From Antedon bifida (lineage: Eukaryota > Echinodermata > Crinoidea > Comatulida > Antedonidae), in NCBI GenBank assembly GCA_963402885.1, contig OY727098.1, positions 28,000,417 to 28,064,416 on the forward strand: a stretch of DNA of 64,000 bases, given 5' to 3'. The notes below the pieces were generated by a model. It saw only the letters and a program-made list of their open reading frames with translations, made no database searches and was not told where the DNA came from. Position numbers and translations under genes: made by a program. How positions within the stretch are numbered: the first letter of the stretch is position 1; each line of letters begins with the position of its first letter. This document shows positions 3,950-54,379 of this stretch, piece by piece.

Positions 3950-34292
<30,343 letters not shown>

Positions 34293-37425: not shown

Positions 37426-40400
37426 TTATAATTTAGCCTTGGGTTTTGGTAGAATTTGTTGTAGTTTCATTGCCGTCGCCATGTTCCCTGCAATTTTTAG
37501 TTTTCCAGAAAAGAATGCCTGTAATAAATAAAGCATATTAGACAAAATGATTAGTTTACAAAAAAAGCAGAGGCAAACACAACTACACAATATTATCAGA
37601 CAGGATTTGAACCTGCAACTTCTCACTGACAAGGCGAGCATTATAACCATTAGACCACATAAGCTTCATGATCAAATACTTCTTAGATACAATCTATCAC
37701 ACAATGAGTATTAACACTGTATTTACCTGTATTAAATGTAGTACAAGTACTTTATGTGTGTTCAATCTATTACGTATCAAAATAACGCACCAACACCTAA
37801 CACATGAGGTAGCATACTTAATTTGTTGCCATACTAAAGGTAATATACTTACAGATTGTGGCTGAAGTTTACCAAGTGCAAGGTCAATCAGGTCGCCGTC
37901 TTTTACTGTAATAGTACAATCAGCTTTCTCTGAAATAATCAAAGTACGATCAATTAAACTATATTTCCAAACAACTGTAAGATTAGTCAGTTGCCATGAG
38001 AAACTTAACCATAATCAAATATAAACAAAATATAATGTAATTTAAAATGATTAATAATAATTGACATTGAGGAGACAGTGGTGTATGAGCTGCCAGAAAG
38101 TTTGTTTAGACTCCAGAAAGTTGACTACCATAGTGTGCAACTGACTATCATAGTGTGAAACTGACAATCATAGTGTGCAACTGACTATCATAGTGTGCAA
38201 CTGACTATCATAGTGTGCAACTGACTATCATAGTGTGCAACTGACTATCATAGTGTGCAACTGACTATCATAGTGTGCAACTGACTATCATAGTGTGCAA
38301 CTGACTATCATAGGGTGCAACCAGGGAGATGTAAAATATTTTACATCTCCCTGGTGCAACTGACTATCATAGGGTGCAACTGACTATCAGTGTGCAACTG
38401 ACTATCATAGTGTACAACTGACTATCATAGTGTGCAACTGACTATCATAGGGTGCAACTGACTATCATATTGTGCAACTGACTATCATAGTGTGCAACTG
38501 ATGATCCACTCTATTAAATAATATACTTACTCTTTGATCCATATTCCACACTTCCATTTCCATTCTTAACATCTACAATCCATTTTCCTTTCTTTCCTCC
38601 AGGCCCATCAAGTATATCAAATGCAAACACTGACTTAACCTTGCTCACATATTTTGCACCATCCTAAATAAGTAAGTTGTATTTATGTATTTAAAATATT
38701 GTACATTAAGATTCAGTTAATAGGTCAAAAATAAACAAGCCTTTGTTGTACTTTCTAATTTCAATTCACTATAAAATGAAAGATTAAATATTATATTAGT
38801 AACGTCGGAGCATAGAAATTAGTGTTTTATAAGTTTTAAGAAAAAACACCACATTACTTCTTGATATTTATTAATAATTATGATTTTTTACTGAGGTATT
38901 GTACATATGAAAAAAAAACCACCGCAATATATATTCACCTTTTCAAGATTTCTTTCAATTTCATCAAAGACAGCGTCACATTTGAATCCTGTTGAGGAGG
39001 CAGTGTGGTACATGCGTACACCAGAACTAAAATAACAAATGAACAACTTGAAATTCTTTCTACTCTATGGGCTCAATCTACCCAGGTAATTTAATGAGCA
39101 TAGCTATTACTTAATTAAACTTAAACTAATCTATACCTTTTATACATAGTAATTTGAACTGCTTTGTTGTATGTTTATATATCAATAGTGTATATCCTTT
39201 AACAGATTGTACAAATGTACATGATAGAAAAAAATCTGATATATCCTGTATGTGTAGACAAACTAGGCAAATTATCTGAAACTGAATCTATAAGTTATTT
39301 GATACCAGCATCTACTAGCCTCAGATTTTAGGATCTATAGATTAATTTGTACAGGGACACAAAGCACTTTAGTTGCCTATGCTTCACTGCTTTCTGCAAG
39401 CGATAGGTGCCTAGAGAATGGACAATAATAGTTCAAGGGTGCAGGTTTTAAGCTCCTTATTAATATGAAAAGAAAATATTTCTTCCTGTTTAGATAAAGA
39501 GGGTATAAAAATGAAAGGAAGTGGGCCATCAAATACTTTGTACATACCACTTTTTAAGAGCATCCATACCAGCAAATCGTATACTACTGATTATTGGTGG
39601 TGTATGGTTCAGCATAGGTACTGGTAGGATAAGACTGATACTAAAGGTCATGGGACTTAAGCAAACCTTTGTACATAATAATAATCTTGATAGGGTTTAG
39701 CAAATACATATGTCAAGGGTACAGATGATGGATAACATACTAATAGAGGGCACTAGTAGTAGACCATGATTGTAGGAAAATTATATGGTTTACAAAATAT
39801 GAGGAGCTTTAATTTAAAGCCTAAACGAAGATGATGAAATATGCATAAGACAAGATACTAACTTTTGTATTAGCTCATATTGGTATGGCAATAATACACA
39901 TATCATGATATTACAGTAAAATAAAAAAGAAAATAAGAACACTGTAGTATTAATGCAATATTAAATAAATGCAAGACATCTTCAGCTATGAGAACAAAGT
40001 TCAACTCATTCAGGGCATCCAAACAGTGAACTTTATTTGTCATCAAATCAATTTAATTGATTTAATGTGTGATGAAATATATAATTACCTGGTATTTGGG
40101 AAGCCTAGTTTATATAGTCCAACGACTACAGCGCCCCCAAGTCCGATATTATGCTGCAACGCTAGCTTAGCATTTGGTACTTGTCGTTTACCAGCTTCGT
40201 TCCTAAGTTGCCAACATAACTCAGAACACTGAGCAAGACCTACAAAAAACAAACGTACAGAACTAAATAAACTAAATTTTACATGAGTACTATTTTATTA
40301 ATATAAGTCATTAGTGGGTACTGCACTATCACCTTGGTAAGGCCATGTTAGTATACACACATGTACTGTAGGAGAAATTAGTTCATTCATCATTATATTT

Positions 40401-43400
40401 GGTAAAAATAAAGATAAAACATTTATGTTGTAAAATAATAAACACATACATAGATGCGAATTTATAAGTAAGACATTCAGAAACCTTCCTAAATTTATGA
40501 AAATATTTGAAAAGGACAAAACAAATGTAACTATCTGTACAATTCATCCAGCATTGTCCAGTACAAATACAAGCCAACTTAAGTACAGCTGCTTATGTTA
40601 TATCCGGTATTAAAGTGTTGATGTAATACATGTCACATTACATTAAGTTTACTTCTAATAGTTGGCATCATATCAAACTATACCAAACCGTACCCCATAC
40701 TAACTATACCAAACTGTACCCCATACTAACTATACCAAACTGTACCCCATACTAATTCTCTTTATTCAATTGTTTCTAATTGAAAACTTAACACAAACTG
40801 TAATCTTTATAAATTGTGTTTATTTTTAAATTTAATTTTTTGTTGCATGTTTATGTCATATTGTATTTTTATACCCTCAAAAACATAATTGACATACAAC
40901 AAAATAAAAACAATACAAATTATACCAGTCAGCTACGATGCATTTAAAACTACTAAATGACTAAAAAAACTGTTTTGTTCATAAAATGACAAATAGCCCA
41001 TAGTAATTGAAATTGGATTGGATCAGAAATGATACAATTAAACATGATGAATATCATTGCTAACAAAGTAAGTATGCTTATTTATTTTATTTCAGATAGC
41101 AAAAATTGCTATGATTTCCATCAACAAAATAACCATTACATGTTCAGCTAGTTGCAGCTAAAAAATAAGTAACATAATAAATTCATTCAATTATTCCTTT
41201 GAAATAATACATTCAAAAGATAAAACAGTTGTGAGGAAACCTAGACACCTCGTGTGCACTGCAGTTGACCTCAATGGTTTAGTTTCCGTTGCTCTATATT
41301 GTCACATAATATAGTGACAAACAAGTGACAATGTGGTGCTCATCTTAGTTGAATCATTGAGTATGATACCATAAAGTTCAAATTTAACTAAAGGACAATG
41401 TTATCTGTTCATCTAGTGTCTCACTGACTACGATCTGACTTAAGTTCAAACTCACAAAACCAAAGGACATTGTGGTAGTCATCTCCTGTGTAATTGACTT
41501 ATTGAGTGTGACTTAAGCTGAAACTCAAAGGCATTTCAGTGGTAGCCATCTCCTGTGTAATTGACTTATTGAGTGTGACTTAAGCTGAAACTCAAAGGCA
41601 TTTCAGTGGTTCATTGGAGGTTCAGTTGAACAGTGTTACTTTGGGATAAAAGTTTTTGTTGTTCTGAGACTTACGATATTGTGTGTTAATATTTAAACTC
41701 CTTTGTATCCACAATATTTAAGAAGTTGATTATCAGTTAACAAACTGTAATTACTAGAGTTTACGTTGCTGTACCAAGTCATCAATTCAAATTGACCTAA
41801 TGGGTTGGCCAAATCAACCAAGTCTGATTCACTTCCGGATGGTAGTAGTAAACACACAAGGCTTGGATGGCCTAAGCCACAAGTTAATTAAGAATCTTAA
41901 GTCTAGTTTCTTAATTGAAACGTCAACTATAATGTGCAAAAGGGTCAAGGACATGATAGTAAGTTTTTTAGTTTGACATCTTCGACCCACTTTCCCTCGA
42001 GTGTACACTTATTCCGGCATTCACTTCACTTTCTTTTTTCTTCAGTCAATTTAAGCTGTTAATAGACTTATAAGTTTATTCTTAATTTGTTAATAGACAC
42101 TTCATAATAATTCCAGTAGAAATAAACCTGTATTTATTTACTGAGCACTATTTATGATATAGACCTATTTGTATTTATTTACTGAGCACTATTTATGATA
42201 TAGACCTATTTGTATTTATTTACTGAGCACTATTTATGATATAGACCTATTTGTATTTATTTACTGAGCACTATTTATGATATAGACCTATTTGTATTTA
42301 TTTACTGAGCACTATTTATGACATAGACCTATTTGTATTTATTTACTGAGTACTATTTATGATAAAGATCAATTTGAATGTGTCAGGATCTTTAAAAGTC
42401 TATCTTTTGATGTTATCAACTGTATTTTTAAACCTGTAACCTTTGAATTAAACAATGTAAATATTTATGTAAACACTAAATAAACGAATTACATTTTAGT
42501 TACTATTGTTCATGAATATAATTCAATAACAAATAACATCCACACAAATGTTTGAAGGAAGGTTATCGGTTCCATGACCTTCAAATTCTTCATTTTCATT
42601 GGTTAATATCTAATCAGAACTAAATTTATAATATCACAAAAATTATCCTAAAACAGTTGACAGAAAATTAACATTGGCCTACATATATCCCAGATATTTA
42701 AAATTAAATCACAACTATAGTTAGTTTGGTTTTTTCATGTATTTTTCATTTTAAGTTGATTTGAAGCAGATGACAAAATTGTCAAAATGTAGGTTTGACA
42801 GCTCTGATTCACCAACTGTACTGTAAAGTATAGGGACAAAAGGGGTTATATAATATAAGATTGGTTGTATTACTTATGGGTCAACTATAAAGAGGAAAAG
42901 AAGTGGTAGGGAAGCATTGTGTCCATTAAATACTCCAGTAAATAGAGTACAGTATACATATTCATTCATTCATCAATATGAGATGTTCCTTAAAAGGAAA
43001 TAAGTCCTCACAAACAAACTGACCAACAATGAATACTAACATACCTGTTGTGAGTGTCCTTTGGAAATAAGTCCTCACAAACTGACTAACGATGAATATT
43101 AACATACCTGTTGAACGGAGTGAGTGTCCTTTGGAAATAAGTCCTCACAAACTGACCAATGATAAATATTAACATACCTGTCGCACCAAGCGGGTGTCCT
43201 TTGGAAATAAGTCCTCACAAAGTGACCAATGATAAATATTAACATGCCTGTCGCACCAAGCGGGTGTCCTTTGGAATTAAGTCCTCACAAACTGACCAAT
43301 GATAAATATTAACATACCTGTCGCACCAAGCGGGTGTCCTTTGGAAATAAGTCCTCACAAACTGACCAATGATAAATATTAACATACCTGTCGCACCAAG

Positions 43401-46400
43401 CGGGTGTCCTTTGGAAATAAGTCCTCACAAACTGACCAATGAAAAATATTAACATGCCTGTCGCACCAAGCGGGTGTCCTTTGGAAATAAGTCCTCACAA
43501 ACTGACCAATGATGAATATTAACATACCTGTCGCACCAAGCGGGTGTCCTTTGGAAATAAGTCCTCACAAACTGACCAATGATAAATATTAACATACCTG
43601 TCGCACCAAGCGGGTGTCCTTTGGAAATAAGTCCTCACAAACTGACCAATGATAAATATTAACATACCTGTCGCACCAAGCGGGTGTCCTTTGGAAATAA
43701 GTCCTCACAAACTGACCAATGATAAATATTAACATGCCTGTCGCACCAAGCGGGTGTCCTTTGGAAATAAGTCCTCACAAACTGACCAATGATGAATATT
43801 AACATACCTGTCGCACCAAGCGGGTGTCCTTTGGAAATAAGTCCTCACAAACTGACCAATGATGAATATTAACATACCTGTCGCACCAAGCGGGTGTCCT
43901 TTGGAAATAAGTCCTCCACTTGGATTCACAACATATTTTCCACCATACGTATTGTCTCCTCTGTCAATCATATTACCTGCTTCACCTGAAATAAAGCAAG
44001 TATATAAAATATAGGAATTAGACAGATAATAAATAGTTGGAGAAGTACAATTCATATCAGGAGTAACTTGCTTGCAAACTAGTATGGTTTAAACAATGTA
44101 AAATGTATTATCCTTATGGTATATAGAAATTAGATTGCTGGAGGTAGTACGATTCATGATAGGAGTCACTTGCCAGCAAACTTGCTAAAAATAATCTAGA
44201 ATTTTTAATCTCATTAAAAATGTGTATCCAAACAATGGATCATAACAAAACAGTCAGGTCTAAATCTTAAGCTTAAGCTACACATGACAAAACAATGTGA
44301 TGTGCCCATATATGGACATGGTGATGTCATATCACTACCATATTTGGGCATATCACTGCCATATTTGGGCACATCATACTTTTTTTGTCAAACTAGTTTG
44401 ATAGTATAGACAGAGCTTAAAGTACAGTATGTACTCTAGGATATATAGTTTAGACACACCTGTGTCTGGGGTCCATTTTATTTATGCTAAATTGTTAAAA
44501 GGTCAGTAGTTCAGTTTGAAGCCTCTCAACTGGGCCAAATTGTAAATGAGAATGTAACTGCTATTAATTAATTAATGAGACTTAAATTAATCACTGCCGA
44601 TATAATTTAGTTGGATGTGAGTCATAAACAAATACTTATTTATACTGCCAGTTATGATAATTAATGTTTCTTATTTGCTAAACAAAATTACTTTATTAGA
44701 TATTGTACTCTCATAAAATACGTTGTTGATAGTATTCCAGTTAGCTAGATTTTTAAATAGTTGAATGAAAATAAATATTGAAATAAGGTGATCTCAATTT
44801 AGTGTGATTCTTATTATCCAACCAAGTACTACAAATTAAAAAATTGCTTAAGCCTCTTTAATTAAGATCCAAATTATATACAGTATTTAAGCATCCATAA
44901 GTATAAACTAACTTATATACAGTATATATATAAACACCACAGGCACAGAAATATACAAATTGCATGAACTTAGATTGAAGATGAGAACTGTACAATGATA
45001 AGTAAGGAAGGAAAAGAGTCATCTGGGGGTTGAACTAAATATGCTGATGTAGTACAGTGATACAGTAAGCAATTGACTCATGGCATACCATCATCATAAT
45101 ATATATAAATATATTGATATATACACACAGTTTATAAAGTTTTTTGATGTCAATTTAAAAAGATAAATATAATGTAAAAAGTATCTTTATATTGTCTTCA
45201 AAAGATACTCATTTGAAAATAAAAATGTAATAAAAATATATTTTTATTTTTTAAATATTGGTATAAAAGTTGAATGTAAGTGAAAATTATTAAATAATCA
45301 ATAAATCAGTTTCTATTAATTAAACAATGAATACACAGAAAAATAAATTAATGCTATCTCACAAAAAAAAACAGCATTGGGCATAATATCATAGGATTAA
45401 GCAGAATTTAACTTCAACTTTTGAATTGAATACCCAGTAAAGTTAATACAGTCAGTAGAAATCAGAATGTTTATTTTAATACTACAGTTTATAGGCAATT
45501 TTAAATTCTTTTTAATGTAATCATTTTACAAATCAAGTATTGTTTTGATGTTCTTAATAAATGTTCTGTAAAAATTTATTCCCAAATATGACAACAACTA
45601 ACTTAAGAAAAAAAACCTTTTTTAGAAACAAAGTGTGGGGTAACCTAAGGGGAAGGGTCCCATGGGTAGCATCGTACCAGCTGTTTGTGGTCACTCAGTC
45701 TAGTTTCCAGGGCATAATCATGACATTAGGTCAAGAACGCAGCTTCATTTGGGATACAAATTCAACATGATGATATGATAGCACAGACAGGCAGCTTGGA
45801 ACAGACAGTACTTACATTTCTAGAAAGATACTTAAATGAAAGAGATGATACCAAGCAATAGCACATAGTCCAAGTGCTGCATATGTGAATAGTGAGATAT
45901 AATGCATTGTGGGTAATTGTCATCACTTGTAACCTACCAGGAGCACATAGTCCAAGTGCTTCATATGTGATTAGTTCATTAGCAGCAAAGCAATCATGCA
46001 ATTCCACTACTTGCACATCTGTTGCAGAATATGGGGTCTTCTGAAAAAGTTTCTCTGCTGCCTTTTTTGTCATGTCATACCCAACCTTTATTAACAACAA
46101 ATATAATCATTATTTATCAGAAAGAATAAACAATTTGTTGTAAAATTGAAAGTTAATAAAGAAAGAAAATAGAATCTCTGTATGATGCCATTTTTCTAGA
46201 GTTATTTATCATTCAAAACTTACTACTTTCATACAGCTATTTTCTTCAAATGTGCTGGGAAGATCAGTTGCCATCTCCATACCAACTATTTCAACTGCCT
46301 TCTTTTCTAATCCATTTCTTTTGACAAAGTCTTCACTGCAAACTATTACAGCTGCACTCCCATCTGAAGTTGGACTAAAAGAGAGTAAGCAAGCATGAAA

Positions 46401-54035: not shown

Positions 54036-54379
54036 TTAAAGATGTATTGTCCCCCAAAAACATGAAAAATGAAGATTAATTAAATCAAACTTTGAATATG
54101 TTATTTTGTAGTTTTAATCAAGTTAATCACTTCAATAGAAAAAAACCATGTTTTCACTTATAAAATGACAAAACAAATGGTAAAATTCAACCAAAAATCC
54201 ATTGGCTGGCAGCCAATTTGACCATTTTTTGCTTTAAATTACATTTTTTTCAGGTAAATACATTTTTTTTTCGATCCAATTTTTTTTCAAAGTGGATAAC
54301 TATTATGTTACATTAAAATGGAATATTAAAAAAAATAATTGTTAAGAATTATTTTTTCAGGGGGACAATACATCTTTAA
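54036..54379. mobile_element. 344-bp MITE-like element with 20-bp terminal inverted repeats
   Basis: The left end ttaaagatgtattgtccccc (54036-54055) and right end gggggacaatacatctttaa (54360-54379) are exact inverse complements. The outermost bases are TTAA on each side, so the target duplication could be TTAA (piggyBac-like) or TA (Tc1/mariner-like). A related copy is at 36029-36345. Just outside the left end, cgggacaatacaacttta (54021-54038) resembles a third terminal repeat facing the other way, as if two elements abut. Confidence 0.75.

Follow-up and report, generated by a model that had tools for sequence, protein, structure and literature searches.

A mirage-type minisatellite formed from an exon end and its splice donor in the SCP2 gene of the crinoid Antedon bifida

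Mirages, as the parts of two papers drawn on here describe them, are minisatellite-like tandem duplications of exon-intron boundaries, at either side, which were found in amphioxus in Adh3 and in the globin genes BflGb6 and BflGb9 (PMC3087553), with TnC and PGBD5 added in another report (PMC3902484). Unit length runs from 10-72 bp in Adh3 to 150-160 bp in the globins, splice signals occur in many of the copies, and evolution within clusters is concerted (PMC3087553, PMC3902484); reverse transcription PCR (RT-PCR) suggests that regular splicing is undisturbed (PMC3087553). Here we analyse a 64-kb window of the Antedon bifida genome (C11:28,000,417-28,064,416; C11, 28,224,916 bp; assembly, 315.6 Mb), in which the end of exon 9 of the SCP2 (SCPx) gene is repeated together with its 5' splice site as a 70-bp minisatellite. 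The array belongs to a known kind, the mirages, here found in a new phylum, and others of its class occur in the same crinoid genome, which is minisatellite-rich where it was sampled. We give a probability of about 0.75 to the reading that it is a by-product of minisatellite birth without a dedicated regulatory role, and that the first donor is the one used. No report of an echinoderm mirage was found in the literature searched.

Intron gain through tandem duplication of AG/GT proto-splice sites has reportedly been put forward by Rogers in 1989, by Zhuo in 2007 and by Gao and Lynch in 2009. The SCP2 locus resembles that route in that tandem copies put several donors in one gene, and differs from it in that no new intron is evident, the copies lie inside the kept intron 9 and the potential acceptors mostly score weakly. 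According to the part of the account cited, internal tandem repeats in human segmental duplications lengthen exons or make new introns in recent paralogs (PMC2812944). They share with SCP2 the expansion of a minisatellite at exon-intron boundaries, but there recent paralogs were altered, whereas SCP2 is a conserved gene with an apparently intact structure. Intronic minisatellites are also present in earthworm metallothionein, where no boundary-spanning array was seen in the sections of the paper relied on (PMC12783039).

Structure of the 70-bp array

The SCP2 gene lies on the minus strand of the window. A peptide joined from its thiolase exons, with X placed at the unmodelled parts, aligned with residues 26-151 and 209-410 of the 414-residue SCP2-thiolase type-1 (PDB 6hsj, which we take to be the zebrafish protein; E 1.9e-145), and the peptide of exons 9 and 10 matched it at 2.2e-46. 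Exon 9 (43878..43985, minus strand, 108 nt), identified by peptide homology, has the acceptor TTTATTTCAG immediately upstream and ends at the donor CAG/GTATGT (the slash marks the exon end), the intron starting at 43877. Intron 9 (40240..43877, minus strand, 3.6 kb) contains the additional copies of the exon end, hereafter decoys, plus three more minisatellites (42129-42376, 41436-41610 and 40676-40755) detected by a tandem-repeat scan. Exon 10 (40089..40239, minus strand) carries on the thiolase frame from exon 9, and the junction between both exons is in frame.

Exon 9 contributes its final 39 nt to the repeat unit, which continues with the 5' splice site and takes in 31 intron nt counted from the GT. 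On the minus strand, the array comprises eleven regular copies (the true exon end being copy 1), two decayed ones and one stub; copies (first letters GAGGACTT) start at 43916, at 43846 and so on every 70 nt to 43216 for the eleven regular ones, and then at 43146, 43076 and 43009. Copy 1 (43847..43916) holds the 39 nt of the true exon end with its donor, the remaining 31 nt being intronic. The ten regular decoys (copies 2-11, 43147..43846) have a GT donor in copies 2, 4, 5, 6, 8, 9 and 11 and a GC donor in copies 3, 7 and 10. Copy 12 (43077..43146, 70 nt) is decayed, its exonic part having 6 mismatches to copy 1 and its intronic part 2, as is copy 13 (43010..43076, 67 nt; first intron base at 43044), and both retain GTATGT. 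A stub of 14 nt, GAGGACTTATTTCC, represents one more copy at 42996..43009. With both decayed full copies included, there are 9 GT and 3 GC decoy donors, and the nine GT decoys have the 9-mer CAGGTATGT in common with the true donor. Tandem Repeats Finder (TRF) reported positions 43054-43916 with a period of 70, 12.3 copies and 96% match. The exon-end 23-mer had 11 exact copies in the window, compared with 0 in 100 shuffles, and a DNA search of the whole assembly, which passes over very common words, returned 13 unit matches, every one inside the SCP2 array. These results confirm, as nearly exact, the preliminary description of this DNA, in which the exon 9 end and its donor were said to be amplified as a 70-bp minisatellite with eleven regular and two to three decayed copies; its count of seven GT and three GC donors is exact among the ten regular decoys.

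The unit length is not divisible by three, as had been pointed out, and the donors of copies 4, 7 and 10 would restore the frame (210, 420 and 630 nt), but with read-through meeting a stop already in the third unit, also as described. Each copy includes a 36-nt segment, GACTT...ACAG, that codes in frame (phase 1-1), with gaps of 34 nt between segments.

Variation along the array is polar. Copies 1 and 2 are identical at 70/70 positions and, among copies 1-11, only 1 of 39 exonic and 4 of 31 intronic columns vary, with pairwise differences of 0-4 of 70. Copy 12 differs from those at 8-12 positions, and copy 13, inspected by eye, has part of the copy 12 changes in common plus a deletion. The array is therefore homogeneous next to exon 9 and most divergent at its intron-side end, and this homogenisation of the inner copies, with the edge less affected, is the pattern of concerted evolution of mirages. 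Copies 2-5 had seemed to resemble copies 6-9, but a higher-order repeat built of four units was rejected (lag-4 permutation p = 0.23).

All the structural features of mirages that were examined are present at SCP2: the 70-bp unit spans a real boundary and a splice signal and falls within the 10-160 bp range given in the consulted parts of the amphioxus reports. The locus differs from those cases in belonging to a crinoid echinoderm, of another phylum, and in holding 11 regular copies versus the 3 to 6 given there for BflGb6; it is of donor type, whereas the amphioxus cases, as far as those parts go, include acceptor-type arrays, haplotype length differences and RT-PCR support.

Arrays at other exon ends

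The whole assembly was surveyed for runs of three AGGTAAGT spaced 46-76 nt apart, with the reversed pattern as control; there were 106 matches versus 111 in the control. One hundred of the 106 matches were listed and correspond to 17 distinct loci; the seven that looked coding were fetched first, and then the other ten. Among the 17 loci listed, ten (L032, L033, L034, L035, L036, L037, L038, L043, L045 and L049) have an open coding-like frame that continues into copy 1 as far as the repeated donor, and these were classed as exon-end arrays on frame and donor. In five of the ten, the exon bearing the unit matches a family in Pfam or PDB: NHL (6e-5), DUF2045 (1e-9), the STAT coiled coil (5e-7), MCM_OB (7e-5; 23.1 bits, under the 24.8-bit cut-off) and the splicing helicase gene DHX8 (PDB, 1e-20). 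L035 has a match only via the preceding exon (CEP76-type domain, 7e-7). By eye, L041, L042, L044, L047, L048 and L050 are not at exon ends, and L046 is not clearly so. A second donor octamer, AGGTGAGT, at 46-76 nt gave 40 matches at 10 loci (control, 47); two of these loci, picked for their coding look, were fetched and both are exon ends, one in a USP9X-type exon (L039, 1e-21) and one (L040) with no match in Pfam or PDB.

Other spacings and motifs were also counted. AGGTAAGT gave 42 matches versus 156 in the reversed control at 16-46 nt, and 52 versus 88 at 76-106 nt. AGGTAWGT at 46-76 nt gave 597 versus 189, the listed matches being mostly one 56-bp satellite on C7 (AGGTATGTAAAGTATTCCC...), which occurs in several blocks at about 11.84-13.17 Mb. 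TTTTGCAG at 46-76 nt gave 38 versus 23, letters being shown for 5 of the 38 places; at C12:5687451-5688178 and C7:5377905-5378204, TTTTGCAG recurs roughly every 72 nt, and these ladders are possible acceptor-type arrays. Since the survey took a small part of the donors and unit lengths, the real number of exon-end arrays is probably larger.

Taking SCP2 and the twelve others together, the 13 arrays have units with an exonic part of 18-79 nt and an intronic part of 1-65 nt. The terminal donor was inspected in six arrays, a sample biased in that they were found by searching GTAAGT: whereas the copies have GTAAGT, it reads GTAATT in L034, GTACAG in L035 and GTACCA in L037; it is GTAAGT in L033 and L038, and the end of L036 is ambiguous. 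In L034 and L035, a strong donor is formed where the intron start fuses to exon sequence, and in L038, AAGTTGTT is common to exon and intron at the break.

Minisatellites around the window and the mitochondrial contig

In 264,000 bases (the window, 190 kb next to it and 10 kb from another part of C11), 59 arrays with a period of at least 15, at least 1.9 copies and a score of at least 76 cover 16,086 bases. Minisatellites being so dense where sampled, exon boundaries may simply be swept up by them. A second, decayed donor ladder was found near the window, where a 52-bp x 6.9 array lies 28 nt beyond the end of an AP-3 delta exon (2e-16; L030 530-1093, minus strand, in C11:27970417-27980416) and its units carry ACAGGTAA donors like the true donor region; comparison of this donor with the array scored 30, the best other array scoring 24, and none of 2000 shuffles reached the score. 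Similar comparisons revealed no such likeness to the boundary for the 20-bp x 19 array at 38122-38501, 30 nt past the donor of a downstream SCP2 exon at 38531 (letter-shuffle p 0.78), for a 27-bp array in a ZSWIM-like gene with a guessed donor (p 0.97), for a GPX-like array (p 0.66) and for a RICTOR-like acceptor (p 0.08), the last three gene names having been assigned by eye.

Three further elements were observed. A 27-bp x 5.8 array with 100% match (window 12031-12187) has an open frame repeating IQLAFIIFT right after the ZSWIM-like coding stretch; a short tandem repeat on the plus strand (window 54223-54268, unit CATTTTTTGCAGGTAAATA) has acceptor-like and donor-like signals back to back; and a long frame on the plus strand (L027 7309-9999) was judged by eye to be retroelement gag-pol-like, with zinc knuckles and an integrase-like region.

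The mitochondrial contig (C27, 15,844 bp) contains COX1 (Pfam, 1.6e-139), whose conserved places fit AAA = Asn, ATA = Ile, AGR = Ser and TGA = Trp, which is the echinoderm code. The genes nad1, nad2 and nad6, identified by eye, are on the strand opposite to the other mitochondrial protein genes, the large rRNA match is on the nad1 strand, and nad4L lies between nad4 and nad5. In the crinoid Thaumatocrinus naresi, nad1, nad2 and nad6 are on the opposite strand too (PMC10013537). Code and gene strands together indicate a crinoid echinoderm.

Donor choice, rival explanations and significance

The array would have arisen by a tandem duplication with breaks inside exon 9 and 31 nt into intron 9, expansion and homogenisation presumably coming afterwards, with the true exon end remaining as copy 1. 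The spliceosome would then most likely pair the upstream acceptor with the first donor to give the normal 108-nt exon, and the decoy copies would all leave with the 3.6-kb intron. Because the donors are letter-identical, donor sequence alone cannot choose the first, and any use of a decoy would lead to a frame shift or a stop. Judging from the exon lengths, exon definition is the likeliest basis of the choice, as it would favour the 108-nt exon over the alternatives of 178 to 941 nt computed for use of the decoys; of the two readings offered in the preliminary description, strong exon definition picking the first donor appears the more plausible. RNA folding showed no clear preference across copies and is not counted as evidence: accessibility of the 6-nt donor core was 0.057 in copy 1, 0.0007-0.009 in copies 2-12 and 0.036 in copy 13 (0.044 in an in-silico single-copy version), and over 9 nt copy 1 (0.0018) had no advantage over the decoys (0.0004-0.0099).

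Several points weigh against a by-product spliced at its first donor and against the extent of the class. The GT decoys are identical to the true donor, and in minigenes with duplicated equal donors the intron-proximal one, nearest to the 3' splice site, can reportedly win, so mis-splicing would be predicted. With both octamers, the number of donor ladders was not above that of the reversed control (106 vs 111; 40 vs 47), and hence the survey shows the existence of the class but no preference of arrays for donors. As regards its members, the search of Pfam gave no match for L037, L043 and L049 and a weak one for L038 (0.086), that of PDB gave none for L038 and L049, and the coding call for these four loci, made from an open frame, is provisional.

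The preliminary description had suggested that the array tunes SCPx output and isoforms. The decoys could bind U1 or divert splicing to stop-containing products, thus setting SCPx levels, and the 9-mer that nine of them share with the true donor would suit such a role, as would the stop in the third unit, which makes decoy use unproductive. This is unlikely, and the suggestion found no support: ten or more other loci have the same kind of array at an exon end, which argues against a device specific to SCP2, and similar arrays with other unit lengths occur in unrelated genes (STAT, DHX8, USP9X-type, MCM-type, DUF2045 and NHL). Amphioxus mirages, in the portions of the papers used, are reported without disturbance of splicing (PMC3087553, PMC3902484).

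We consider even less probable that the copies are nascent exons, the AG before GACTT making each a 36-nt cassette that is sometimes spliced in. That the cassette codes in frame and that the gaps are 34 nt was correctly described, and intron gain from mirages has been proposed for the amphioxus globins in the cited part of one report (PMC3087553), but the proposed acceptor is weak in most copies. By a crude scoring with 19 real acceptors as reference, it has a value of -0.9 in ten of the 13 copies, the other three reaching -0.7, 0.4 and 2.0, so that 11 of 13 fall below the minimum of the real ones (leave-one-out: minimum -0.5, median 7.5) and come near the 137 AGs elsewhere in the intron (median -1.1). 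This scoring does not settle the matter, since values of 1.5 or lower are also found for four of the 19 real acceptors, and TTGGTCAG offers another AG eight bases upstream with a score of up to 2.6. The neighbouring gaps are just 34 nt, and insertions would probably disrupt the thiolase loop. An assembly artefact, in which a single real copy was multiplied by mis-assembly, is highly improbable given the private variants carried by copies and the graded decay, an array length (863 bp) that fits easily within a long read, and the same kind of array with different units at twelve other loci.

A wider reading, tentative and on balance doubtful, is that boundary minisatellites are numerous in crinoid genes and that such arrays give rise to donor ladders across the deuterostomes. 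These ladders would be tolerated because exon definition lets the first donor win and, in some arrays, because the duplication provides copy 1 with a consensus donor. If this were true, they would allow 5' splice-site choice to be tested in nature and would be a continuing source of new introns and exons. The choice between identical neighbouring donors has long been a question, mostly approached with artificial minigenes; the crinoid genome provides conserved genes with naturally occurring ladders of near-identical donors, from which ordinary RNA sequencing could read out the rule. Finding mirages in an echinoderm as well as in amphioxus is relevant to the ways in which minisatellites change gene structure and may give rise to new introns.

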